A DNA stretch of 64,000 nucleotides, taken from a cyanobacterium endosymbiont of Epithemia clementina EcSB. Its GTDB lineage: Bacteria; Cyanobacteriota; Cyanobacteriia; Cyanobacteriales; Microcystaceae. The stretch is taken from positions 117,110-181,109 of the forward strand of contig NZ_CP123991.1 of assembly GCF_029919255.1 (NCBI RefSeq), read 5' to 3'. The position numbers and the translations under genes are program-made. The notes beneath the pieces are model-generated. The model had not been told where the DNA came from, made no database searches, and saw nothing but the letters and a program-made list of their open reading frames with translations. Below, in pieces: positions 6,195-58,708 of this stretch (position 1 is its first letter; every line of letters begins with the position of its first letter).

Positions 6195-7680
6195 AGTTAT
6201 ATTGACAAATCTATTTTATTTTTTAGTTTTATAAAATAAATAAAAATGATTTTGATATAATCAAAATCTTTTCAGATAGCTATTGTAGCACAATTTTTAA
6301 CTAACTGTCTTATTTCCAAGAAACAGCTTTTTATACTTTAAAAATAGCCTTAAATAAACATTTAAGATACAAACTATTTCGTGCTTATATATAAAAACAA
6401 TTAATGCCATTTAATTTAGACTGTCTTAATTAATATTTTTCTTATTAACTGCTATAAACAGGAATTTTTAAAGTACTTTAACTAAATTAAATTCATCTTT
6501 AAAAATAATTTCAAGGCTCTCATAAACTTTTCTTGATGTTTTTCAAAAAAAATTAATTCTTGACTACAAGTTAGTATAAAATGCTTTATTTATATAATAT
6601 CTTTTGATTGCTTTGGTTTTACTTTTACTGAACTAGTTATATCCACTGATATATTACAAATAATAATTACTTTTTATAGATTTTTATTTTTAATTTTTTT
6701 GACGTATATTTACTGCTAGAATGTTTAGTTTTAATTTTTTTTAGAACTATTTATTTATATATAAAAATTTTTATATATAAAATAATCAATATTTGCAAGA
6801 AGAAATTTGACTCATATTTTTTATATTATCTAATTTTTAGATATTAATTTTTTTATTTTTTCTTAAAAATATCTAAGGTATTTAATGGTGTTTAGAAGCT
6901 GAGTAGTCTTTATTTATTTTTTAAAATTTAAACTTTTCTTCTGTCTCTTAAATTGTTAATTTAAGTTGTTTTCATTATAGCTATTTATAATCTTACTTAA
7001 TTTTAAATCTATTTAAATCAGGTTCTTTTCTAAGAAACATGTTTGTACTTTTATTAGCAAATAATTCTATAGATTCTTTTAAAATTGAAAGTTAACTTCA
7101 ATTATTCTTATTTCTCTAATTTTATTAGCTTAATTTTTGAGTAGGTTACTATCTAACAATTGCTTTCTTTTAAAAAATCTATTCTGACCTTATTTTATTA
7201 AAGTTTACTTATTAATGGAATTTAAAATTAACAGAAAACTTAGATTGGAAAAGTTATTATATTACTTCTTATTAGATTATTTAATGCTTAACATTAAATA
7301 ATCTAATAACTCTATTGAGTACATCAAAGTAATTTCCCCACCTTGTAATTAAAAATATTGTTAATCTGTAAAGGATACTCAAAATTAATTGAATCAGCTA
7401 ATTTTGAGCTTGTATTCAATTAACTATTGCTCTTCTATTGTCTTAACTTATTAGCAACTTCTAACTGTAACATATTACAAACTACTTGACTGCCAGAAAA
7501 CAAAGCTGTATTAATAAATTTTTTTCCGTTATTTTTGGTATTTTTTTTAAAAAAAATTGCGGTTGTAAACTATTTTTTAACCATTTAATAAATGATAAAT
7601 ATCTTGATTAACTATAGTTGATTCATCTTTAACTGAAGGGTTCTAATCAACAGTTAAGCAAACTTCAGAATAACTATCGA
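6195..7680. other. AT-rich gene desert upstream of mfd
   Basis: About 1.5 kb dominated by A/T runs. No open frame of gene-like composition was found and no family was recognised. A perfect 18-bp hairpin lies at 7269-7286 with 7292-7309 (5-nt loop). It probably represents genes eroded past recognition. Confidence 0.6.
7269..7309. repeat. Perfect 18-bp stem-loop
   Basis: The arms 7269-7286 and 7292-7309 are exact reverse complements with a 5-nt loop (CTTAA). It lies about 370 bp downstream, in the - direction, of an unrecognised coding remnant. It may be that lost gene's terminator. Confidence 0.6.
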
Positions 7681-13165: not shown

Positions 13166-14887
13166 TGTGATTATCTAATGTCCTCAGTGATACTTGGAGT
13201 TTGGTTAAACAGTTATCCAGTTCTTTGTTATCAGTGTTTTCACTGTTGACTGTTCACTAGTTCAATGTCTCCGCAAAATACCCGCTACATTCTAACCACT
13301 TTCTCTTTAGGCTTCTAAAAATAGATCTCATATCTTAATCTTTGGATAAGTTTGGTGGAAAAATTACGATAATCAGGAATTAATCCTAACTTTAAATTAA
13401 AGAGTATCTAATCTAAAATTTAAAATTAACTGAGAATATTAAATTTTTTTGACTCTTTTAGAATTACTATGACGTAATAACTACCTAAAAAAGCTGAAAG
13501 TCTTAAATTTGTCAGATTTTAAATAAATAGTAAATAGTTCATAACAGAGAAACGAAAAAAATAGAAGACTTGATCAAAACAGCTTTGTCTATTAGTAAAA
13601 ATGATTGGAATATTTGGTGGATATTATAGCATATCAAGGGAAAATAAGCAATAATTTATTAAAAACTAACAGAGTAATCTTAATCAAATCACTGTCTGTT
13701 TGCCTGAGAATAACTCTAGGCAAACTCTTTCTTCCGCAATTCTAAGTTGTGCTAATTCTATAATTTCTATTTAAGTTATTTTTAATAGAAATTATAGAAG
13801 ATATTTTCTTGGTTTTATATGTTAGAAAATGTGGTTGTATATGGTGTCATTATTAACTTTAGGCTTAAGATATTAGTGTCAATGATAAAAGTCCTAATGG
13901 TTGTCAAAGAGTAAGGTTGTGTGGCGGTTATTTTGATCTTTAAAAAAGTCAGAAATTATAAACAATATTAAATTTGTTCTAGGTAACATTAAATATTATT
14001 TTGAATAAAATTTATTCTTTATACAAAATAAATAAACCAGATAATACTTAAAGATTTTTTGACAAGAAATTAATTTAATTTACATTATTAATGATAATTT
14101 TCTAATTTATGAGATAAAAGTTAAGTCAGTTTTAATGGCAATAATAATCGTACTTATAATATTTTTTTATTGAATTTCTTTTGAACTCTGTAATTTACAG
14201 AATAAGATAGGCAAGTAAAAAATTGAGACTAAACGTCAAACAATATATCCTAAATATTTTCCAGTATCACAAAATAATTGTGGGACTTTTTTATGCAGTT
14301 AGAATTTATTCTAAATAAAATAAGGAAAAACAATTGTATCTGTTGTTAACTGTTTCAGTTTATAAAATTTTTCTATCTGTAATTTTTAATCTATATCTTT
14401 GATGATTGTTTCTATTTTTTGTCAACTCAGTCTATTACTTTTTGCTATATTTTTGATGTCACTATTGACGACATATTCAATGATTTTTGTCTTAATAAAT
14501 TTGAGTTTATTTTCTTTTTTTTCAAGTTAAATTAACTCTTATATGAATTCTATCCACATCGATTATATTTTACTTTGTAAAGATTAATCTTGAGTGTAGA
14601 CTTCTTTCCCTATCCAAGAAAAATCTCTAATTGTTAATTTATTAAATTTATAGAGGTTACTATTGAATATCTCAACAACTCAATATCATTTTAATCTAGT
14701 ATTTTTTCTTAAAATATGTCCAGTAAAATTACTTTTATTAGTTACACAGTTCCTAAATCTCAAAAATTAAATAATATAGAATAATTGAATATAGAAAAAC
14801 TATATATAAAAGTTATTTTTTCCATAATCTATTTTAGAATAAACAATTTACTATTATTAAGTAATAGCAAAATAAATAAATGAGTGA
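13166..14887. other. Gene desert between ndhD1 and the ECF operon
   Basis: About 1.7 kb of A/T-rich DNA without recognisable coding content. The first 150 bp, next to ndhD1, should hold its promoter. A perfect 16-bp hairpin lies at 13756-13771 with 13784-13799 (12-nt loop). Confidence 0.6.
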
Positions 14888-43088: not shown

Positions 43089-45899
43089 TTAAGCAATTTG
43101 AGGTTGTCCTTGAGGTTGAAATTGAAACAACGAATATACTACATTTCGACGAATATCAATCATCATTTCTAAAAACATTTCATATCCTTCTTGCTTATAT
43201 TCAATTAATGGATCTTTTTGTCCATAACCTCGTAATCCAACAGACTCTCGTAATGCATCCATCGCCTGAAGATGTTCACGCCATAGAGTATCAATTTGTT
43301 GCAAAATAAAGAACCGTTCGGCTTCGCGCATCAAACCAGGGCGAATTTTATCTACTTCATCTTCTTTTATATCGTAAGCTTTACGCACCTCCTCATGGAG
43401 AAATACCTTCATTTCACTAACAGTCATATCTTCCATATCTTTAGCAGTAATGTCCTGCAAGAGATAGATAAATTCCTTGACCTTACTCACCAAGTTGTCT
43501 ACATCCCATTCTTCGGGGGGTAATTCTGGATTTACGTAAGCATCTACAATTTCATCCATGGTTTTCTCAGCGTATTGGAGAACCTGTTCTTTAAGATCTA
43601 ACCCTTCAAGAACTCGGCGACGTTCAGCATAGATAGCACGACGTTGGTTATTCATTACCTCATCATATTCAAACACCTGTTTGCGGGTATCGTAATAGAA
43701 GGTTTCTACCTTTTTCTGCGCACCCTCTAGAGAACGGGTGAGCATTTTAGACTCGATGGGCATATCTTCTTCAACACGAAAAGCATTCATCAAACCGGCC
43801 ACGCGATCACCCCCAAAAATTCTTAATAAATTATCTTCTAAACTTAAGAAAAATCTTGTTGATCCTGGATCACCTTGTCGTCCTGCTCGTCCCCGTAATT
43901 GGTTATCGATGCGTCGGGACTCGTGGCGTTCGGTTCCCATCACGTTGAGTCCGCCTAATTCAACTACTTCATTTTGTTCTTTATCGGTAACAGTTTCGTA
44001 AGATTGACGAATAGCCTTGTAAACCTCCCGCAATTTTTTAATCACAGGGTCTTTGGTGGGAGCTTTTTCTGAGGCGACTGCAATTTTTTCCTCAGCTTCA
44101 AGTTCCGATAAACTTTGTTGTCCGTAATTATCAACGGCTATTTTAAGCATATCTTTCAACATCTCTTCGATCTCAGGAGAGAGCTCAGTGGGGAAGATAT
44201 CTGAATCGGAAGGACTCCAATTTTTTACTTTCTTCTTATCTTGCCCGAATCCTTGAGACCGACGACCTCCACCATTTCTCGCCATCGCCGCCATAATACC
44301 ATCATCTTCGGGCATCACAATTTGGGGCATCAGGAATTCCCGAATTTTCAGCCGCGCCATATAGTCGGCATTGCCCCCTAAAATGATATCAGTTCCTCGC
44401 CCTGCCATATTAGTAGCGATGGTAACTGAACCTTTCCGTCCAGCTTGGGCGACAATTTCTGATTCCCGTTCCACGTTTTCAGGGCGAGCATTAAGAAGGT
44501 TATGAGGAATTTTTTTTGCCTGTAAGAGTTGGGAAAGAACTTCTGATTTTTCAACACTGGTAGTTCCTACAAGAATAGGTCGTCCTTGATGGTGCAACTT
44601 CTCCACTTCAGCAGCCACGGCTTGCCATTTGGCTGGTTCAGTTTTATAGACAACATCAGGAAAATCATAGCGTTGGGAAGGTCGGTTAGTGGGAATAATG
44701 GTAACTTGAAGATTATAGACTTTTTCAAGTTCTGTTTCTTCAGTTTTTGCGGTTCCTGTCATTCCTGAGAGTTTAGGATAAAGAAGAAAGAAATTTTGAT
44801 AGGTAATGGTGGCTAGAGTCTGGGTTTCTTTTTGAATATCCACTCCTTCTTTTGCTTCAATGGCTTGGTGTAATCCATCACTCCACCGCCGTCCAGGTAG
44901 CACCCGTCCAGTAAATTCATCGACAATCACAATTTCTTTGTTGCGGATCATATAGTTAACGTCTTTAACAAATAATTCCTTAGCTTTAATAGCGTTGAAA
45001 ATATAATGTGCCCAAGGATTGTCTTGATCGTAGAGATCTTTGACCCCCAACAATTCCTCTGCTTTCTCGAACCCTTGATCTGTCATCAAAACGTTCCGAG
45101 CTTTTTCATCTACTTCGTAGTCTCCTGGTTCTTCTTCACTTTTTTGCGTGATGAGCTGCGCGGCAATGGAAGCCGCTTTGAGATATTTTTCGGTAGGACG
45201 TTCTATCTGTCCTGAAATAATCAGAGGAGTTCGAGCTTCATCAATTAAGATAGAATCTACTTCGTCAATGATGCAGTAGTTGAAAGGCAGTTGAACCACT
45301 TCAGCCATAGCGGTAGCCATGTTATCCCGTAGATAATCAAACCCTAATTCGCTGTTGGTAGTATATGTAATGTCACAAGCATAGTTTTTCTTTCGTTCAT
45401 CAGGACTCATTCCTGCTTGAATTAGCCCGACACTGAGTCCTAAGAAACGATGAACCTGTCCCATCCATTCAGCGTCCCGACGGGCTAAGTAGTCGTTCAC
45501 GGTAACAACATGGACTCCTCTTCCAGTTAGTCCATTAAGATAGGCAGGAAGAGTTGCTACTAGGGTTTTCCCTTCCCCTGTTTTCATTTCTGCAATTTGC
45601 CCTTTGTGTAGAACAATTCCACCGAGAATCTGAACATCAAAGTGACGCATTCCTAAGACCCGAATTCCAGCTTCTCGTACCACAGCAAAGGCTTCGGGTA
45701 AGATTTCGTTCAAAACATCTTCTAACTCCTCATTATCTTTTGCTTGGTCGATAAATTCTCTAAATTCAACTGTTTTTTGCTTGAGTTCTTCATCGGATAA
45801 TTTTTGAATGTCTTCTTCGAGCACATTCACTTCTGTGACTAAAGACTGAAATTTTTTGAGTTTGCGGGTGTTTGGGTCACCAAATAGGGTTTTAAACAT
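43089..45899 (-). CDS. secA: Protein translocase ATPase SecA
   Basis: This 936-residue motor ATPase drives preproteins through SecYEG in the plasma and, in cyanobacteria, the thylakoid membrane. Nucleotide-binding fold 1 has Walker [20 protein letters not shown] (around residue 107) and [16 protein letters not shown] (around 215). The preprotein cross-linking domain interrupts it. Fold 2 shows [21 protein letters not shown] and the later [13 protein letters not shown]. The helical scaffold and wing domains follow. A cyanobacterial insert (about residues 535-560, rich in G, R and K) is present. The C terminus (QPQGQPQIA) lacks the zinc-binding SecB-interaction tail, normal for this phylum. The length is full and no damage is seen. 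Confidence 0.98.
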
Positions 45900-48218: not shown

Positions 48219-49239
48219 CTAATAGTGTATAGTTAATAACTAATTTAATTAGCTATCTCTTACAAGAAAATACTGTTGATAAAGCAAGTTTTAGGATAAC
48301 TTTACGGGGTGTTACCCTATGTTAATACACTGAATCTTGTTGGTAAAAGTATGTTACAGGACAATAAAAATTGTAGTTTATATTTAATAACGAGAGTTTG
48401 GCTAACAGACCAAACATAAAGTATGGTTTATAAACAGTTCCTAAAATAGGGGCAGAGTTTGTTGTGAAACTCATCAAATCTAATAATTTACTTTTTTAGT
48501 CGTCATAAAACTTTTTTATAAACAAAGAAAATATATTCATAAATTTTTATCTAACTTCGAATATTGATTACTGTTAAAAACAGGAGCAAGCCCTTAAGTA
48601 TTGCCGGAAATAATTAGATAAGCTATGAAAAATTTAATTTAGAAGAATGTCCAGAAGATAGAGCTTTATTATTGTTCTTTTAATTTCTGCTTTTTATAGA
48701 AAGTTTAATTTACTTTATTTTCTCATAAATTTTACTCGAAAGAAAAGAATCTAATTTAAATTTTTAAAAAAATATCGAGAAAGATATTAGCGATTGAAGT
48801 ACTATTTGTTAATAGTAGCATTAATAATCTCAATAGATATAAAACTATAGTAGTGAAAGAAGTTTGGTTATAGAAAAATTAAAAGGTCACTTTTTATAAA
48901 TTCCAATCTTAAGAATATCTCAGAATTACTCTTAGTCAACTTCTATCTAATTTGATATGTAACTCAGCTGAAAATTTTGTTAATTCGTAAATTATAGAAA
49001 CAAGAAAATTAGAGGTAATAGTTAAATAGCTATAAATCTTGTATAAACTTTGATTTTGGCTAAAATCAAAGTTTATCTTATATCTTGAGAAGATCTACAA
49101 TGATTTTGCTAATTAATTAATTTTACTAATTAAAATAGTAGCAGATATATTATATATTATAGAATATATTTATATTGAAATAATTTTTTATAAAGACCTA
49201 TTGCTTGATAAGTTAAAAAGTCTATAAAAACTACAAAAA
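48219..49239. other. Gene desert after nadA
   Basis: About 1 kb of A/T-rich sequence. No gene was recognised and no clear terminator for nadA. A 15-bp perfect hairpin lies at 49043-49057 with 49062-49076 (4-nt loop GGCT). Confidence 0.55.
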
Positions 49240-49650
49240 AAGATAAAGCCTATCAAATATAAATAAGAGGAAACATTTTAAATTTAAAATCTAAAAAGTT
49301 CGAATAAAAAATAAAAAGTCAAATTTAACTATGTGGATAAAATATCATCAGTTTTCTAAAAAATATCCTAACTATTTTGAATGAATTTAGAAAATTTTTA
49401 ATAGAAATTAGAAGTTGGTATCAGAACTGTTAAAATTAGCCAATTGGTGTCAAACAGTTTACTCATCATACCAAAAGTTATAACATAGTTAGGCTAAGCA
49501 TTAGATTAGAAAAATTATTTCCCATTCTGAAATAAAAATAACTTAAGGGACAGTCTAAACTATTAACAAAAAATTGAAGGCTCAGTATTTTTTAATCTAC
49601 TTTTTTAGATTTTTAATTGAGGACATTAATGAATTATTATACTTAGTTTT
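49240..49650 (+). mobile_element. Fossil of an ISL3-family transposase (3' part)
   Basis: Forward-strand fragments resemble the C-terminal half of ISL3 transposases: FRKIFNRN-KLVSELLKLANW, TVYSSYQKL, then GTV-TINKKLKAQ (about 49390-49590), the last matching the conserved GTVEGINNKLKLIKR region. A K/S-rich stretch (KKSNL, near 49315) parallels one in the better-preserved fossil at 56-57 kb. Stops and frameshifts are frequent. No terminal repeats were identified. Confidence 0.55.
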
Positions 49651-50248: not shown

Positions 50249-51034
50249 ATGAAACGGCGACAGTTACTCCACTATGCTAGTGTAGGTGCCATTACAGCCA
50301 CTGGAATTCCCCTAGTTTCTCACTTTCAACCGGCCTCAGCCAAGGGTAACGGTTCGTTGATGATACAGTATTTAGGTCATACTTCCTTTTTATACATAGG
50401 GGGAGGACTACGAATTTTAGCCAATCCTTTCCGAACAATTGGCTGCACTGCCGGATATAAACCCCCTAAAGTAGAGGCAGATTTAGTAGTTATTAGCAGC
50501 CAACTCTGGGACGAAGGAGCAGCTGAAAATCTACCTGGAAATCCTAAGATTCTGTATGAACCTGGAGTTTATGAAATTAAAGGGCTAAGAATTGAAGGAG
50601 TTGGAATTGACCATGATCGTAGAGGGGGTAAACAATTTGGAACTAACGTCGCTTGGCGTTGGATTCAAGGCGGACTGCGGATTGTCCATTTAGGAGGAGC
50701 AGCTGCCCCTATTGGCATTGAACAAAAAATTCTTTTAGGAACTCCTGATGTTGCCATGATCCCTGTAGGAGGAGGACCAAAAGCCTATAAACCAGAGGAG
50801 GGAAAACAGGCGATGGAAATTCTCAAACCCAAAGTAATGATTCCTACTCATTATTTAACAGAAGCAGCAGATAAAGCAGCTTGTGACTTATCTCCTGTAG
50901 ATAAATTTTTAGAGTTGGTCAAAGATATGAATATTCGTCAGATTAATGACAACAAATTGCTGATCAAATTTCAGGATTTACCCAAAGAAGGAACTGTTAT
51001 TCGAGTTTTGAGTGAAAAACCAGTCCTCAAATGA
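50249..51034 (+). CDS. Exported MBL-fold-like protein lacking the usual metal-binding motif
   Basis: This 261-residue protein has an N-terminal signal: MKRRQLLHYASVGAITATGIPLVSHFQ, ending in an AxA-like PASAKG. The KRRQLL start resembles a twin-arginine signal. The mature part looks like the UlaG/beta-lactamase_2 branch of the MBL fold (MIQYLGHTSFLYI, IPTHYLTEAADK). The family's HxHxDH motif, normally after the strand VVIS, is replaced here by SSQLWDEGA, and DHDRRGG and HLGGAAAP stand where other ligands would be. I recall the same altered motif in cyanobacterial homologues, so it is probably a lineage trait and not decay. Function is unknown; catalysis of the classic type seems unlikely. Probably periplasmic or thylakoid-lumenal. 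Confidence 0.8.
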   Translation: MKRRQLLHYASVGAITATGIPLVSHFQPASAKGNGSLMIQYLGHTSFLYIGGGLRILANPFRTIGCTAGYKPPKVEADLVVISSQLWDEGAAENLPGNPKILYEPGVYEIKGLRIEGVGIDHDRRGGKQFGTNVAWRWIQGGLRIVHLGGAAAPIGIEQKILLGTPDVAMIPVGGGPKAYKPEEGKQAMEILKPKVMIPTHYLTEAADKAACDLSPVDKFLELVKDMNIRQINDNKLLIKFQDLPKEGTVIRVLSEKPVLK

Positions 51035-51049
51035 TTCTTAATTAAACTA

Positions 51050-51900
51050 AACTAATATGAGCATAGCTTGTGAAATGCAATGCCCGACGATTCTAGTAAT
51101 CAAGTCTAAATCCTGAGAGGAACTGAGCGTTTCTTTAATAGAAGGTTCTCGCTAAGAATCATAAACTGATTTTTCAGGGTGGGGATGACTTTCAACTATT
51201 AAGCCATAAGCCCAAGCTGTAATCGCAATTTTTGCTAAAGGTTCAATTAGTTCTGTTCTTCTAGTAGAACGATAACTGGTAAACAGGTGGGTTATTTCAG
51301 GACAGCCTCTGAGAATTTTTCTGACTTAAGATATACTCTGTATCCAAAAATAAACTCCTCAAGGATTTTGGCTAAACCTCGTTTAAAAATGATGAGTTTA
51401 TCTGCTTTTTCTAGAACTTTGAGTAACTTGAAGTTTTATATATTACAGTTACCAACTTTCACTCTATCTGTATAAGTTACTACTATTTTTTGACATAATT
51501 TTTCTAGTTGACATCACCTCAGTAACGATAGAAGGTCGACAACATAATTTTATTTCACCGAAAATCTTCAGCCTTTCAAGTCTCAAGTCCAAGTCCATTA
51601 AACAAATAGGAGGAGATCTATAGCTCAATTTTCTTTCCCCGTGAGTCTTGAATAGATGGATTAGTGAATTGAAAGGTGACAGTATCAATTTGTTCTAAGT
51701 TTTCAATAATACAAGGACTACTAATAATTACAATTTTCTGATCACCAAAAGTTATGGTATTCGTTAAAATAACAGTGTTCTCGGCTTTAGAATAGAGTTT
51801 TAAGCCAAGTTTTGTGTATTATTTAGTAATAATTTTCTTTAACGAGGAATAAACATTGAAAAAACGAAATCTTGTATCAGTTTTCAAGAAATATTATGAA
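51050..51900 (-). pseudogene. aroF: Broken DAHP synthase (AroF, class I beta)
   Basis: This is a minus-strand relic of 3-deoxy-7-phosphoheptulonate synthase, the first enzyme of the shikimate pathway. Pieces in order are: ITFGDQKIVIISSPCIIENLEQID (about 51690-51760), LFNGLGLE (about 51590), LKIFGEIKLCCRPSIVTEVMSTRK (about 51500-51565), a frame-shifted KRGLAKILEEF region (about 51360-51400), then LIEPLAKIAITAWAYGLIVESHPHPEKSVYDS (about 51155-51250), with the end near 51060. At least five frameshifts or stops occur and the catalytic KPRTSPY stretch is lost. Whether another DAHP synthase exists elsewhere in the genome cannot be seen here. Open stretches at 51287-51475 (+) and 51464-51688 (-) belong to this relic. 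Confidence 0.82.
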
Positions 51901-52371
51901 CTTAATAAAAAACAAAACAGTCCAATCTTCTCAATTTCCCCCAACTTCCTACTAACATAGGAGAATGTGATGGATATATTTCTAGCTTTACTAAGCTTCT
52001 AAACATTGGGCTCAAATTTTAGAGTGTTGCGCTAAGACTATTATTTTTATACAAAAAATGGACTAATTAACGACTATTTAGTATTTATAAAAACTAAATA
52101 ATTAAGAAGAAAGTTTTGAATAATGTTCATATGGTACATCTTAAAAGACCATAAAGTTAACTGGATCAGAACAAAATACACAAATAGATATTTTAGTACT
52201 TTACAACTTAAAGTTAAGTAAACAGACTGCCCAAAAAACTATAGTTTACATGACACACTTTGCTTACGTTTTCTAAACGAAATGGTTTTCTGAAGTTTGG
52301 CAATGACCACCTTAAAAAAGGTTGATCGGTTCAAATTCTTAAAAAAGTTTACCTTTTATGTCCCACAACGC
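51901..52371. other. Intergenic between broken aroF and the STAS gene
   Basis: About 0.45 kb with no gene seen. The far end contains the probable promoter of the STAS-Mini-III pair. Confidence 0.5.
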
Positions 52372-52377
52372 TATAAT
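52348..52377 (+). promoter_or_regulatory. Putative sigma-70 promoter of the STAS-Mini-III pair
   Basis: TTTACC (52348-52353), 18-bp spacing, then a perfect TATAAT (52372-52377), about 33 bp before the Shine-Dalgarno at 52410. Spacing and the G/C-containing surroundings make it better than the many chance TATAATs in this A/T-rich DNA. Confidence 0.45.
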
Positions 52378-52409
52378 ATCTTACTAAGATAATAAACTAT
52401 CATCGACTC

Positions 52410-52425
52410 GGAGGAGGGAGCTATT
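52410..52425 (+). promoter_or_regulatory. Shine-Dalgarno pointing to an ATT start
   Basis: GGAGGAGGGAG (52410-52420) is an excellent ribosome-binding site. The codon at the right distance is ATT (52423-52425, 5 bases after AGGAGG), in frame with the STAS gene. The first conventional start, GTG at 52447, is 29 bases away, too far for this site. Confidence 0.55.
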
Positions 52426-52788
52426 CCTGAGCAACTTACCCTGACCGTGAGTTTACGAGGAACTCGCGACGTTCAAAACACATACCAAATTTTTCGGCTG
52501 ACTGGTCTATTAGATGCTTTCTCTGAACCAACTTTTCGTAAGGTGATTGGGAATTGCATAGATGAGGGACCGGCAAATGTTATTCTGGTCTTGTCTCAAA
52601 TTGACTTTATCGATAGTTCTGGACTGGGCGCTTTGGTTCAACTTGTCAAAAAAGCACAAGTCAATAAGGGTAGCTTACAAATCGTTACTAATCCTAGGGT
52701 AACTCAAACTGTTAAGCTAGTTCGTTTAGAAAAATTTTTGTCTTTGCAAACTTCAGTTGAAGATGCTATCAATAATCTTTTAAAATAG
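52423..52788 (+). CDS. STAS-domain anti-sigma factor antagonist
   Basis: This is a single STAS domain protein of the anti-sigma factor antagonist type (SpoIIAA/RsbV-like), which acts in partner-switching signalling with a kinase or phosphatase. Starting at the ATT at 52423 gives 121 residues (x-PEQLTLTVSLRGT...), which I prefer because of the strong Shine-Dalgarno. A GTG at 52447 would give 113. The phospho-acceptor region is conserved: LSQIDFIDSSGLGALVQLVKKA, with the serine pair after ID. It is followed 40-65 bp later by Mini-III on the same strand, so they are probably co-transcribed. No partner kinase or PP2C phosphatase is in the window. Confidence 0.88.
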   Translation: MPEQLTLTVSLRGTRDVQNTYQIFRLTGLLDAFSEPTFRKVIGNCIDEGPANVILVLSQIDFIDSSGLGALVQLVKKAQVNKGSLQIVTNPRVTQTVKLVRLEKFLSLQTSVEDAINNLLK

Positions 52789-52827
52789 TCAACTCATGAC
52801 AAAGGCGCTAGTGTTGCTTTTGTTCTT

Positions 52828-53328
52828 TTGGGGCATTTAAACCAAGTTAAGACTGTGAAAATACCGAATTCTGACCAAACTCAGTCTCCGATTCCCTATG
52901 AAATTAGTCGAGTCCATGATAGCCTCTCATTTGAGGCTATTGGTGTTAACTTAGAGCCAGTTGGTATGGTACAGCAGTTGTCCCCTAGCTTTCTGGCTTA
53001 TTTGGGGGATGCGGTTTATGAACTTTATGTTCGGAGTCACTATATCTTCCCCCCTCGGCGGCTAGCTGATTATCATAATGAAGTAGTATCATTAGTACGT
53101 GCAGAAAGCCAAGCTGCTTTTCTGTTAAATCTTCGCCCTTATTTAACGGAATTTGAGAAGGAAATTGTTCGTCGAGGACGTAATGCCACCACGGGAGGGC
53201 GTCGACGTATGTCACCAGAACTTTATCAACAAGCCACTAGTTTTGAAACTCTGATTGGCTATCTCTATCTACAAAATCCACAACGTTTAAATCAATTACT
53301 CAGAAAATTAAACTTAAATTCAGCTTAA
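52828..53328 (+). CDS. mrnC: Mini-ribonuclease III
   Basis: This dimeric endonuclease has the RNase III catalytic domain but no dsRNA-binding domain; in other bacteria and plastids it matures 23S rRNA. The conserved core starts at LSPSFLAYLGDAVYELYVRSH (with the catalytic Asp) around residue 52. It continues with the LADYHNEVVSLVRAESQA region and the RRGRNA motif, ending in SFETLIGYLYLQNPQRL with the catalytic Glu. The first 45 residues are poorly conserved, so the start is uncertain: TTG at 52828 (166 residues) or GTG at 52855 (157). It follows the STAS gene in a likely two-gene operon. Confidence 0.9.
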   Translation: MGHLNQVKTVKIPNSDQTQSPIPYEISRVHDSLSFEAIGVNLEPVGMVQQLSPSFLAYLGDAVYELYVRSHYIFPPRRLADYHNEVVSLVRAESQAAFLLNLRPYLTEFEKEIVRRGRNATTGGRRRMSPELYQQATSFETLIGYLYLQNPQRLNQLLRKLNLNSA

Positions 53329-53544
53329 GTTATCAAGTCCAAAGGAAGACTTATCTTAATTGAAGGAGAACGGAATATCTAACCCTTTTTTTATTTTCCT
53401 TTACTGATAAATTGAGAATATTTATTTATAGAAAAAAGTGCCGTTCTCAGGTGGGGACAGGTGATGTTGTGATCGTTGCAGTTACTTCTTGAAGGTTTGG
53501 GATATTAAAATTTTTGAGGGATTTTATTCATTACAGGTTATTTC
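53329..53544. other. Intergenic before the tandem duplication
   Basis: About 0.2 kb. No gene seen. No strong terminator was found for mrnC. Confidence 0.4.
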
Positions 53545-54728
53545 TCAATAGTTGACTTCGTCGTATTTTGACTCAGGTATTAAGCAGGTATTAAGAATAA
53601 TAAAAGTGTTTTCAAACTTCGTGGAACTCACCCTTGCCCAAAATGTACTATTTCAGTTAGTACAATTGAGGGGTTCAATATTCTTTTAAGATTGTGGGCG
53701 AACTATCTGATGATTGAAATGGACAAGCAGTCTGTTACCACTTTAGAGTAGACTCTTGGGAAAAAGACCGTAAATATAAAAAGACTGGGCTTTTGGGCAA
53801 TACTATGTTAAACCATTGTAAAAGTACTGAATCTTTAGAAAAAACTATGTTAGATCATACATGGCAGTAATGGTAACGAGAGATTAAATGTGGCGTGATC
53901 AATCTTTTTTTTGAGATGCAGTCCAAACCATATCTGAGGTTATCAAAAGTATTTTTATTTTTCCAAGTTAACACGCAATACTAGAACGAAAACTATGACT
54001 AATATCTATCCATTCAATTAGCCTGTTAATGGTGATTGACAGGCTGAAGTAGTGGTAAAAACAGTGTATTCAATGCAGGAGACTCGCCAGGCTCTTGAGC
54101 TGGTTCAAGAGCGCAAGACTGTAGTCTTGATCCTAGATAAATTACCTTTAGATCAAGCTCAGCGAGTGGCAGATTGGGTCGCGGGGGGAGCCTATGCCAC
54201 TGATGGACAAACCCTTTGGGTCGGAAAAAGGACATTAATGTTTGTTCCCAACCAAGTTAGTGTCAAGTCTAGTCGACCTCCCATTTCTCCTTTTGCTCCT
54301 AACCTCAAAACCTGTACAGAACACTTGACTAGTATATCTTAAGAAAAGTTCCTACAGAATTTTGCCGGTTAACCTCTTCAGGAGAGAGAAGACTAACATT
54401 CTCTGAAAAAAGTTCCCATAGAATTTAAGCGAATCTGTCATGTAAAGTACAGATATAAAACGCGTTGTCAATGATAAGCTTATGAAAATGCGGTTTTTGT
54501 GTAGCTAGCATCCCAGCAGGTTTTCTCCCTAACATTAAATTGCGTCGAACTCAATATTTTCAGTTGATTTATGCTTATAGTATTAAATGTTTAACTCGGT
54601 TCAATGAATAAGATTCTAAATTTAGAAAAACTTACCATTTCCTTTATCAGATTTTAAACTAGATACGAAGAGTTAAATTGATCGGAAAGATAGACTTAAC
54701 AGCAATTTATATTTATTGTGGTTCAGTT
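53545..54728. repeat. Tandem duplication, unit 1 (decayed copy)
   Basis: About 1.2 kb that matches unit 2 (54752-56027) in the same orientation and order. The match covers a 430-bp leader (for instance AAAAGTGTTTTCAAACTTCG at about 53601 and 54800, and AAAGACTGGGCTTTTGGGCA at about 53779 and 54979). It then covers the SepF-like gene and about 350 bp after it (GAAAATGCGGTTTTTGTGTA at about 54484 and 55790). The gene part is the most alike. Unit 1 lacks about 100 bp present in unit 2 before the gene. Confidence 0.85.
53995..54342 (+). pseudogene. SepF-like gene copy 1, with two nonsense codons
   Basis: This copy has the same ATG and reading frame as the intact copy at 55301. Codon 9 is TAG (TGG in the other copy) and codon 15 is TGA (TGT in the other copy). 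After codon 15 the frame is open to the same stop, with only a few substitutions, including in the SepF core ERKTVVLILDKLPLDQAQRV. Translation could in principle restart at a GTG at 54052, giving about 96 residues, but no ribosome-binding site supports it. This looks like a recent duplicate losing function. Confidence 0.8.
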
Positions 54729-54751
54729 TAAGAATGTTATCTATTAAATGT

Positions 54752-56027
54752 TAATCTCCAATCGTTAACCTCATCGTGTTTTGACTTAGGTATTAAGAAT
54801 AACAAAAGTGTTTTCAAACTTCGTGGAACTCACTCTTGTTCAAACTATGCTACCCCGATAAGTACAATTTAGGAGATTCAATATTGTTTTACAATTGTAG
54901 GCAGACTGTCTGATGATCAAAATGAATAAGCAGTCTGTTTCCACTCTAAAATAGACTCTTGATAAAAGAACCGCAAATGTAAAAAGACTGGGCTTTTGGG
55001 CAATACTATGTTAAACCATTGTGAAGGTACTGAGCCTTTGGAAGAAACTGTGATTAAGTGGTACATAGGCGGTAGCAATAACGAGAAATAAAATGTGGCG
55101 TGATTAACCTTTTTTTTGAGATGCAGTTTAAGCCATAGGAGGAAATAACTAAACAGAACTCACACTGCTTGGTCGGGAGCCTTTGTGCGGTCAGACACCT
55201 TTGGCTGATTAATATTTATAATCCAATAATCTGCATTATCTAAGGTTGTCAAAACTATTTTAATTTTTTCAAGTTAACACGCAATGCTAGAACGAAAACT
55301 ATGACTAATATCTATCCATTCGATTGGACTGTTAATGGTGATTGTCAGGCTGAAGTGGTGGTAAAAACAGTGTATTCAATGCAGGAGACTCGCCAGGCTC
55401 TTGAGCTGGTTCAAGAGCGCAAGACTGTAGTCTTGATTCTAGATAAATTACCTTTAGATCAAGCTCAGCGAGTGGCAGATTGGGTCGCGGGGGGAGCCTA
55501 TGCCACTGATGGACGAACTTTTTGGGTCGGAAAAAGAACATTAATGTTTGTTCCCAACCAAGTTAGTGTCAAGTCTAGTCGACCTCCCATTTCTCCTTTC
55601 GCTCCTAATCTCAAAACCTGCACAGAGCAGTTGACTAGTATTCCTTAAGAAAAGTTCCTGCAGAATTTTGCCGGTTAACCTCTTCAGGAGAGAGAAGACT
55701 AACATTCTCTAAAAAAAGTTCCCATAGAATTTAAGCGAATCTGTCATGTAAAGTACAGATATAAAACACGTTGTCAATGACAAGCTTATGAAAATGCGGT
55801 TTTTGTGTAGCTAGCATCTTAGCAGGTTTTCTCCCTAACATTAAATTGTGTCGAACTCAATATTTTCAGCTAATTTATGTTTATAGTATTAAATGTTTAA
55901 CTCGGTTCAATGAATAAGATTTTAAATTTAGAAGAACTTACTATTTCCGTTATCAGATTTTAAACAAGAAATTAAGAGTTTAATCTATCGGATGAAATAG
56001 ACTCAACGGCAACTTGTATTTATTCTG
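54752..56027. repeat. Tandem duplication, unit 2
   Basis: The second copy of the unit at 53545-54728, directly adjacent and in the same direction. It keeps an extra stretch of about 100 bp (about 55140-55240, beginning AGGAGGAAATAACTAAACAG) before the gene. Beyond the gene, both units carry similar remnants of another reading frame (RTQYFQLIYAYSIKCLTRF-like). Their non-coding parts have diverged clearly more than the gene. Confidence 0.85.
55301..55648 (+). CDS. Short SepF-like (DUF552) protein
   Basis: This 115-residue protein consists mostly of a SepF/DUF552 domain: EVVVKTVYSMQETRQALELVQERKTVVLILDKLPLDQAQRV, then DWVAGGAYATDG and LMFVPNQVSV. In SepF this domain polymerises and binds FtsZ. 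The N-terminal membrane-binding amphipathic helix and long linker of normal cyanobacterial SepF (about 190 residues) are absent. It may therefore be a paralogue or a truncated form; whether a full-length SepF exists elsewhere cannot be seen. The C-terminal 30 residues (SSRPPISPFAPNLKTC) are low-complexity. This is the intact copy of a tandem duplication; the other copy has two stop codons. Confidence 0.7.
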   Translation: MTNIYPFDWTVNGDCQAEVVVKTVYSMQETRQALELVQERKTVVLILDKLPLDQAQRVADWVAGGAYATDGRTFWVGKRTLMFVPNQVSVKSSRPPISPFAPNLKTCTEQLTSIP

Positions 56028-56039
56028 ATTCAGCCACCA

Positions 56040-57000
56040 GTAAACTTTATCAAGATAATGAATCAACATTAGGAACTTAATATTGGGCAGAAAGAGCTGT
56101 CTATCTGAAGACTAGTTGTCGTTGCATCAGTATAGATGTATCTAATATTGAAATAAATTTAACGAAGAATTAAACTACCTTAAAGGCAAAGAATATAGAC
56201 TGAGATATTTTCAGATAAAAATTATTGAAGAAGTCTTGATAAGATTGGCATTAAAAATGTAGCAAAAAGAATGAAGTGAGTGAACAAAAAGTAAAAATAA
56301 TGCTCAAAAATTTAAGTCAAAAATTACAGATAGAAAAATCTTAGATATTAAAACAGTTAGCAATTTGATAAAGTGGCTGCAATTAAAGGACAATAAAATC
56401 ATCATGTAATGTTAATAGATTTAGACAAACGAGTAAGCATAGGAATTCTAGAAATAAGAAAATTTAAATAAAAACTAAAATAGTTAAAAGTTTGAAAGAA
56501 TAAAATTTTTATTGAAATTGAAGAGATAAATATAACTTTTGAGAAATTAGATAGAAACATTCTAAACAAATAAATATTATAAGCTGAATAAGCTTAAGTA
56601 GTAGCAGATAGATTTCATTTAATGAAATAAATTAATATTCAAGTCGATAATCAAAAAATTTTTTTAATGAAAAGATAAAGAGCTTAAAAATACTAGTCGA
56701 AAAAAGAAAAAAACTTTCGGAATTAAATTAAGAGTAAATATGTTTCACTTAAAGATTAAAAAGATTAAAGTAAAGAACAAAAAGTCAAATTTAAACAGAT
56801 ATATCGAAAATCACTGATTATCCCTAAAATATACCAATTAAACAAGAAATTTAGAAATTTTTTTAAAATAACGAGATTGGAAATTAGGACTATTAAAATT
56901 AGCTGAAAGGAACAGAAGTAAAATATTAATAATAAATTGAGTTGATTAAAAGGAGAGCTGATTTATTTAGAAGATTTGTAGATTTTCAACTCTAAAATTT
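56040..57000 (+). mobile_element. Fossil of an ISL3-family transposase
   Basis: Forward-strand blocks in changing frames follow an ISL3 transposase from the zinc-finger region onward. They are YWAERAVYLKTSCRC (about 56083), EVSEQKVKIMLKNLSQKLQIEKS (about 56275-56345), then VVADRFHLM (about 56601, a hallmark of the family), GLLKLAE (about 56890), and ESLFI-KICRF near the end. Stops occur every 10-30 codons. The insertion abuts the end of duplication unit 2. No terminal inverted repeats were identified. Confidence 0.75.
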
Positions 57001-57229
57001 CTTAACTTGACATTTAACTAGTCAATTCTACATAATCAGTTTGGTATAATTTTAAAAACCAATTCGACGAGTTTAGCATAAAAAAGATTATGCTCGGCGA
57101 GAGGGTTATTTAAATTCCCTATCAGTTCCTTAATTTTCCTGTCCAAGGACCAAATGTTATTTTTAACATCAACTATCAAAACCTGCAGTTGATTGCGGAT
57201 TAGGAGTATTTTTCTTGTAAGTTAACCGT
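57001..57229. other. Intergenic downstream of the SulP gene
   Basis: About 0.23 kb, no gene seen; no strong terminator was noticed for the SulP gene. Confidence 0.4.
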
Positions 57230-58708
57230 TTATACACAATCATTTTCGGGAGCATCGAGTTTATCATGAACTGCTAAACGTTCTATTAAGGTGGCACTCG
57301 CTTCATTGAGTCCGATTAGATCAACTTTGATATTATGTTTGCGAAACCGTAAGACTACCTTATCCACAGCATCAACGGCAGAGTGATCCCACAAATGGGC
57401 GTGAGTTAAATCGATAGTCACTTTTCGCAGTTTTTCCCGGAAATCGAAAGCACTAATGAAGTTATCAACAGAAACAAAAAATATCTGCCCATTAACACTA
57501 TAAACTCGTTCAGTTCCATCTCCTTTGAGTAGGGAATCTACAAAAATAAGAGAGGCAATTTTACGACTGAAGAAAATAGCACTCATAGCAACTCCAATCA
57601 GCACTCCAATAGCTAGATTATGGGTTAACACAGTAATTAACACTGTGGTAATCATTACTGCAGTTTCGCTCTTCGGAAACTTAGTAATGTTACGGATAGA
57701 ATTCCAATTAAAGGTACTAATGGACACCATAATCATAATTGTTACTAAAGCTGCCATAGGAATTCGTGCTATCCAATCGCCAAAAACTAGAATAAAAGTC
57801 AAAAGAAAAATTCCAGCACTGAGGGTCGAAAGTCTTGCTCGTCCCCCAGAACGAATATTAATCACTGATTGCCCAATCATGGCACATCCAGCCATACCAC
57901 CAAAAAACCCTGTCACGATATTTGCTATTCCTTGGGCGATCGCCTCCTGATTTTTATTACTAGATGTATCGGTTAAATCATCAATTACATTGGCAGTTAA
58001 GAAAGATTCCAACAATCCTACTAAAGATAAAGTGAAAGCGTAGGGCAGAATAATTTGTAATGTCTCAAAATTCCAAGGAATTTCTGGTACAAGAAACACG
58101 GGGAGAGTACGAGGAAGAGTTCCCATATCCCCAACAGTAGGTACCTGAACCCCTGTCATCAAAGAAACAATGGTTAAGCTAACAATAGCTACTAATGGAG
58201 AAGGGATCACACTTGTGAGGCGAGGTAAACCGTAAATAATTACTAGCCCCATAGCGACCATTCCATAAACTAACCAGGAAGCCTCCTCAAATTGGGGCAG
58301 TTGGGCCTCAAAAATCAGAACAGCTAGAGCATTAACAAATCCGACCATAACCGCTCTTGGAACAAAGCGCATCTGATGACCGAGTTTGATCCAACCTAAA
58401 ATAATCTGAAGAATCCCTGTTAAGATTGTTGTGGCTAATAAGTATTGTAGTCCATAGTCTTTAACTAGAGTAGTCATTAACAAGGCCATTGCCCCTGTCG
58501 TTGCCGAAATCATGCCAGGCCGACCACCAATAAAGGCAGTAATAGTGGCAATACAAAAAGAGGAATATAGTCCTACTTGGGGGTCAACTCCTGCGACAAT
58601 AGAGAAAGCAATAGCTTCAGGAATTAGGGCTAAAGCTATCACAGTGCCTGCTATAATGTCATTTTTAACATTAGAAAACCAGACTTTTTTAGTAAAAATT
58701 TCACTCAT
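57230..58708 (-). CDS. SulP-family anion transporter
   Basis: This 492-residue inner-membrane transporter of the SLC26/SulP family carries sulfate, bicarbonate or related anions. The membrane part (about residues 1-385) has 10-14 helices, with the N-terminal signature [31 protein letters not shown] and [28 protein letters not shown] short STAS domain follows (about 405-485: [31 protein letters not shown]). It is shorter than the bicarbonate transporter BicA as I remember it (about 560), so substrate is uncertain. A HIP1 octamer lies at 57936. It is isolated between a transposase fossil and a desert. Confidence 0.9.
57936..57943. repeat. HIP1 octamer GCGATCGC
   Basis: Exact GCGATCGC inside the SulP gene, the second of the two copies seen in the window. 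Confidence 0.8.

Follow-up and report, generated by a model that had tools for sequence, protein, structure and literature searches.

The window, as we call the whole stretch of 64,000 nucleotides analysed here, spans positions 117110–181109 of a genome of 3,072,807 bp assembled as a single contig, from a genus that includes the spheroid bodies of diatoms. The nearest named relatives are the endosymbionts of Rhopalodia gibberula (RgSB, NZ_AP018341) and Epithemia turgida (EtSB, NZ_AP012549). Two tandem units sit between a ribonuclease III domain gene, which we take to be of the Mini-III type, and a sulfate permease gene. Self-BLAST of the window returned one strong pair (53931–54726 against 55237–56033, 93% over 797 columns) and a second pair covering the leaders (53521–53932 against 54734–55137, 79% over 415 columns), which confirms a tandem duplication proposed in a first-pass annotation, with one 115-codon SepF-domain gene per unit. 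Just two other pairs were found at E 1e-8, both of them pieces of the insertion sequence that follows copy B. The same annotation had described a shared leader, gene and trailer: both units do carry the gene, but copy A has a private deletion of ~100 bp immediately before it (counterpart in B ~55137–55236). The DNA missing from copy A is present in both RgSB copies, and also in EtSB, where it aligns less well. The features of the locus, in window coordinates, are these.

52828–53328, + strand: ribonuclease III domain gene (Pfam), upstream neighbour and syntenic anchor; order the same in RgSB, EtSB and the genomes G003 and G001
53521–54726, + strand: tandem unit A, upstream copy (window self-BLAST, pairwise alignment)
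53547–53631, + strand: IS982-family right-end remnant at the start of unit A; the BLAST-confirmed part, 53586–53630, matches positions 664–708 of a 709-bp copy in genome G006
53966–54625, + strand: low-divergence tract in copy A, read as a gene-conversion tract, ends approximate (likelihood scan with shuffles; partner in B ~55272–55931)
53995–54342, + strand: copy A, SepF-domain pseudogene (translation; TAG at codon 9, 54019–54021; TGA at codon 15, 54037–54039)
54052–54342, + strand: residual open frame of copy A from an in-frame GTG (codon 20), 96 aa (ORF list; Pfam SepF 8e-16)
54430–54725, + strand: ISL3-family remnant, the first ~316 bp of the element, at the end of unit A (BLAST to a 1420-bp G006 ISL3: 142–316, weakly 10–42)
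54734–56033, + strand: tandem unit B, downstream copy (window self-BLAST, pairwise alignment)
54760–54832, + strand: IS982 remnant at the start of unit B (79% identity to positions 636–708 of 709)
55301–55648, + strand: copy B, intact SepF-domain gene, 115 codons (Pfam SepF 4.7e-16)
55736–57049, + strand: decayed, near full-length ISL3-family element after copy B (BLAST to the G006 ISL3: 142–1176 and 1275–1417 of 1420, weakly 10–44)
57230–58708, − strand: sulfate permease family gene (Pfam), downstream neighbour and syntenic anchor; order the same in RgSB, EtSB, G003 and G001

Both units begin with the same IS982 remnant, which also has dispersed copies at other places; the 709-bp G006 reference copy is itself shortened. 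At 53574–53595, within the remnant of unit A, lies a private 11-bp repeat (CAGGTATTAAG twice); copy B and the copies of RgSB and EtSB hold the sequence once. The A/B junction falls at the end of unit A's ISL3 remnant. The transposase of the G006 ISL3 copy matches DDE_Tnp_ISL3 at 7.6e-73; G006 has five places with near-equal ISL3 match scores (L093 and four others), and the one examined encodes a full 408-aa transposase, against only fragments in spheroid bodies. Pieces of the ISL3 type number at least 50 in the window genome, at least 63 in RgSB and at least 41 in EtSB; elsewhere there are at least 3 in G003, at least 10 in G006 and at least 2 in G004, and 0 in G001 among the matches listed. 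Two further fragments in the window, at 14343–14540 (75%, inverted) and 49133–49440 (68%, direct), resemble 55736–57049. At the EtSB locus (L042, ~6497–6543) the DNA from the gene to the part matching 57212 is missing, ISL3 remnant included. Because the elements at the two ends are unrelated (IS982 and ISL3), crossing over between copies of a single element did not produce the duplication; the same finding, a different insertion sequence behind the remnant at each end, led us to reject the idea that one mobile element carried the gene as cargo. A viral_contigs search for relatives of the protein gave 2 pattern matches, none of them upheld, and Rfam over 51000–58000 gave no match at E up to 1, on which a known structured RNA in the region was rejected.

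Translation bears out the first-pass description of the upstream gene: after TAG at codon 9 and TGA at codon 15 the frame is open and ends at the same stop as copy B. Against a gathering cut-off of 27 bits for PF04472 (SepF), copy B scores 59.2 and copy A from codon 20 scores 58.5, so that the product was rightly called SepF-like. Copy B is held under purifying selection, with dN/dS of 0.073 between window B and RgSB B, 0.061 between window B and EtSB, and 0.033 between RgSB B and EtSB (values involving G001 are rough, an alignment gap near the gene end throwing the frame off). This constraint is mostly absent from the A copies. Pooled over the two A copies, private changes in the gene comprise 16 amino-acid changes, 3 silent changes and 4 stops (the shared TAG counted once in each copy). 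The two B copies together have 2 amino-acid changes, 7 silent changes and no stop; Fisher P for the contrast is 0.003 when stops are ignored and 0.001 when they are counted. Relaxation of constraint is thus significant for both A copies together and not for window A alone, as the excess of amino-acid changes and stops in the window pair does not reach significance (8:9 against 7:23, P 0.11). The dN/dS between A and B is 0.37 in RgSB and 0.19 in the window genome, the latter below 1 and counting against full relaxation of A. Copy A shares its state at codon 72 with G003 and G001; the direction of that change is therefore doubtful, and an old state may have been kept. Copy A probably makes no protein; it is dead yet still looks almost intact.

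A short SepF paralogue

A canonical SepF, intact and 192 aa long, is encoded elsewhere in the window genome, presumably next to pipY-like and proC-like genes. The search for a full-length sepF suggested in the first pass therefore succeeded, and it undoes the idea that the duplicated gene speaks to division under host control: it is distinct from the canonical division gene, and with intact SepF elsewhere the loss of copy A is uninformative on host control of division. In a protein search at E < 1e-20, the short paralogue occurs in all 7 genomes of the genus (broken in G003). Outside the genus it turned up in 9 of 29 further genomes from the same family, and in 0 of 23 from other families in the order. 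When a second sample of 148 genomes of the order, partly overlapping the first, was scored with the family profile, only the window genome and G014 exceeded 160 bits; a further 131 genomes matched at no more than 89 bits with frames of at least 187 residues, as in canonical SepF, and 15 were without a match at E 1e-20. No NCBIfam family was found for the short protein. Among the paper titles listed in a literature search, none is on a second short SepF in cyanobacteria; supplementary tables could hold an annotation of the gene or pseudogene.

The AlphaFold model of the short paralogue has a mean pLDDT of 69.4, with ten-residue blocks from 21 to 90 lying between 63 and 88. All 23 best Foldseek matches in the PDB are SepF or SepF-like chains or the Corynebacterium glutamicum entry 3p04, the closest being the SepF structures 8hzt (2.4e-5), 6sat (3.6e-5) and 3zih (5.1e-5), and the predicted fold is that of SepF. 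The short paralogue thus shares its domain with canonical cyanobacterial SepF (Cdv2), from which it differs in its restriction to part of one family among the genomes searched, in its amino terminus and at one position of the FtsZ contact. No N-terminal amphipathic helix is predicted in residues 1–18 of the model; a crude test, the 12-residue hydrophobic moment, gives 0.17 for the short paralogue, 0.32 and 0.34 for two relatives and 0.53 for canonical SepF. W75 (55523–55525 in copy B), invariant in 15 of 15 sequences, aligns with C. glutamicum K125, a placement that is weak in phmmer to 6sat (E 0.13), has the same register in a profile search (E 6.2e-7) and counts residue 1 of the 6sat chain as 63. 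The canonical SepF of the window genome has Arg at this position (by eye). At the position of C. glutamicum F131, the window genome, RgSB and EtSB have Leu (L81), and the other 12 of the 15 sequences have Phe. In C. glutamicum, mutation of K125 and F131 together left no detectable FtsZ binding, as described in the available text of PMC7118173. Judged by its alignment and its model, the short paralogue would not be filed as a working FtsZ anchor.

Uneven divergence along the unit

Copies A and B differ at 118 of 1168 aligned sites, and the differences are far from evenly spread. The leader (66/373) and the last 116 bp of the unit (19/116) are the diverged parts; between them lie the stretch just before the gene (6/64), the gene itself (17/348, or 5/57, 1/153 and 11/138 in successive parts) and the non-coding DNA after it at 54343–54609 (10/267, 96% alike). 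A likelihood scan in 6-base steps places the best low-divergence tract at 53966–54625, with 29 differences at 660 sites inside and 89 at 508 outside, a score reached by 0 of 200 shuffles. Identity along the unit is thus not uniform. The first-pass statement that the gene segments are more alike than the flanks holds on the left; on the right it fails, as likeness continues for ~280 bp into non-coding DNA.

This non-coding likeness is peculiar to the pair within one genome. Over 54343–54609, window A and RgSB A differ at 65 of 262 sites and window B and RgSB B at 51 of 197, giving ~75% likeness between genomes against 96% within (Fisher P ~1e-12); the non-coding columns of G003 and G001 mean little, both genomes being too diverged outside genes. 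Because the homogenised tract covers DNA that protein-level selection does not protect, gene conversion between the tandem copies is favoured over shared selection as the source of their likeness, one of two alternatives offered in the first pass. Quartet sites over the unit give the same grouping, 76 joining the copies within a genome, with the sites that support orthology (A with A, B with B) few, at 13, and 11 crossing. Polarised by EtSB over 941 columns, 42 changes are shared by the window copies, 21 by the RgSB copies, 4 by the A copies and 3 by the B copies, and silent sites in A and B hold genome-specific states. The last 116 bp are the stretch in which true orthology would be expected to show without conversion; here A–A identity is 88.5% and A–B identity in the window genome 83.6%, a difference that is not significant (Fisher P 0.34).

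The RgSB pair has a patchwork of its own. Its copies differ at 4 of 138 sites in the last part of the gene and at 19 of 153 in the preceding part (P 0.004), and at 51 of 194 sites after the gene, so that the low-divergence tract is unlike that of the window genome. We infer that the copying ran from B to A and that the mechanism was RecA-type conversion. RecA is unbroken in the window genome and in the four other genomes searched, and the available text of PMC11131595 has recombination and repair genes mostly retained in spheroid bodies and transposases kept only as fragments. A literature search over the main text of papers did not link gene conversion to spheroid bodies.

Relatives and age of the duplication

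RgSB has both copies in the same locus order, with an A/B junction matching that of the window. The first pass had noted a gain of sequence in an otherwise shrinking genome; with duplication and junction shared at the same locus in RgSB, that gain is not recent and appears to predate the split of the two. RgSB A is also dead, having TAG at codon 9 as in window A, TAA at codon 54 and changes at W61, A63 and G64, each invariant in the 15 aligned sequences. Single copies stand at the same place in EtSB, G003 (2.48 Mb) and G001.

Thirteen of the 19 window ORFs tried (the other 6 being missing or partial in some genome) gave a tree of 14,490 columns, rooted with G003, that groups RgSB with EtSB to the exclusion of the window genome, with bootstrap support of 100 under each of three models; the same grouping came from 8 genes when G001 served as outgroup (99.8/100). 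The branch is short: site support in the 13-gene set is 201 for RgSB with EtSB and 162 and 118 for the alternatives, and 8 of the 13 genes favour the grouping outright, with 1 tie and 4 against, including the long secA-like gene at 43089–45899. A tree of the post-gene region did not resolve. Given a single origin and a correct tree, the duplication predates the RgSB–EtSB split, and EtSB has probably lost one copy. No second leader was seen at the EtSB locus, and the loss there may have come about by recombination between the repeats or by a deletion after the gene.

The single copy in G003 (L043, G003:C1 ~1976564–1976886) is broken by stops, including TAG at codon 9, and by a 19-base gap, so at least one lineage manages without the gene. 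We rejected descent of this copy from copy A by way of the shared TAG, since there is no excess of matching private sites: G003 matches 6 of 32 for window A, 3 of 19 for window B, 9 of 58 for RgSB A and 4 of 30 for RgSB B, counts that include sites gapped in G003. Its TAG is read as a recurrent G-to-A change, and with a third broken copy stopping at the same codon, the TAG common to window A and RgSB A could be convergent too.

History and meaning of the pair

We consider it highly probable that the pair arose by one old tandem duplication, that copy A is dead and that it was partly overwritten from copy B in both lineages. A stretch of ~1.2 kb with the SepF-domain gene, flanked on one side by a decayed IS982 end and on the other by a decayed ISL3 element, would have been duplicated once, before the ancestors of the window genome and RgSB separated and, by the local tree, also before EtSB and RgSB split, with EtSB later going back to one copy. 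The downstream copy would have stayed under purifying selection and the upstream copy become a pseudogene, probably first by the TAG at codon 9 common to the window genome and RgSB. Recombination between these neighbouring homologous repeats would then have copied stretches of B over A in both lineages. The last such event in the window genome would have taken in most of the gene and ~280 bp beyond, and would have spared or predated the 5′ nonsense codons, leaving copy A dead but nearly intact-looking.

Two separate duplications at the same place, one in the window lineage and one in RgSB, would also group copies by genome, as 76 of the 100 informative sites do, and would suit the single copy of EtSB, the sister of RgSB in the tree. 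We think them unlikely: the matching junction joins the interior of ISL3 to sequence before the IS982 end with no obvious hot spot, the TAG is shared by both A copies, and one recent duplication would give an even divergence within each genome where a very uneven one is found. Still less credible, to the point of being very improbable, is that both copies were selected as proteins until lately and that the gene is alike through conservation, with conversion playing no part. The gene is indeed conserved beyond its flanks between genomes (window B and RgSB B differ at 26 of 291 sites in the gene body and 112 of 471 in the leader), but conservation of the protein leaves aside the 267 non-coding bases that are so alike within the genome, the genome-specific states at silent sites, and the two stops and broken invariant residues of RgSB A. 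The codons after 15 most likely look intact in copy A because it was recently overwritten from its living neighbour, and not because it was lately under selection, as the other alternative of the first pass would have it.

That copy A is alive, restarting at the in-frame GTG of codon 20 to make a 96-aa SepF domain minus its N-terminal tail, is improbable in our view. The frame is open from 54052 with a near-full SepF profile match, an AGG stands 8 nt upstream of the GTG (by eye), and the model gives most of the first 14 residues very low confidence; yet W9 is kept in all 11 sequences (of 15 aligned) that reach that far, favouring the upstream start, the GTG codon falls inside the predicted first strand (residues 19–23), the private changes in A are mostly amino-acid changing, and RgSB A is dead inside the domain, with no long-term use seen. 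Tandem repeats are frequently misassembled, but the chance of an assembly artefact here is negligible: the RgSB chromosome, published separately, is arranged in the same way, on which we rejected misassembly, and A and B differ at about one site in ten.

Concerted evolution by gene conversion in bacteria is familiar from rRNA operons and tuf genes. The history of a dead copy overwritten from B resembles those cases in that likeness within a genome exceeds that between orthologues, in bounded tracts that include non-coding DNA; it differs in that the recipient is a dead gene, so that conversion masks its age and keeps no function. Copy A also resembles the pseudogenes described for rhopalodiacean spheroid bodies in the available text of PMC5638926 and PMC11131595, stop-broken and set among low coding density and transposase fragments, except that it belongs to a duplicated pair and is partly re-homogenised; those accounts, as available, do not mention gene conversion.

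A reading of what the gene does can be put forward tentatively, with the odds against it. The gene would be no spare division gene but a paralogue with the SepF fold, from one cyanobacterial family, in which the membrane anchor has been lost and an invariant Trp stands in for the FtsZ-contacting Lys or Arg. Its product may serve as a soluble SepF partner or modulator, for example in mixed dimers, and the gene would be in the course of being shed piecemeal as the bacterium turns organelle-like. The idea of piecemeal shedding draws on the dead single copy in G003 and the dead upstream copies in the window genome and RgSB.

The case is neat yet mostly ordinary. It flags a little-noticed SepF paralogue, and it makes marks of recombination visible in a group that has kept RecA and reportedly lost active insertion sequences. 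It also means that recent-looking pseudogenes in shrinking symbiont genomes can mislead, as conversion resets the clock and a long-dead gene looks freshly dead.
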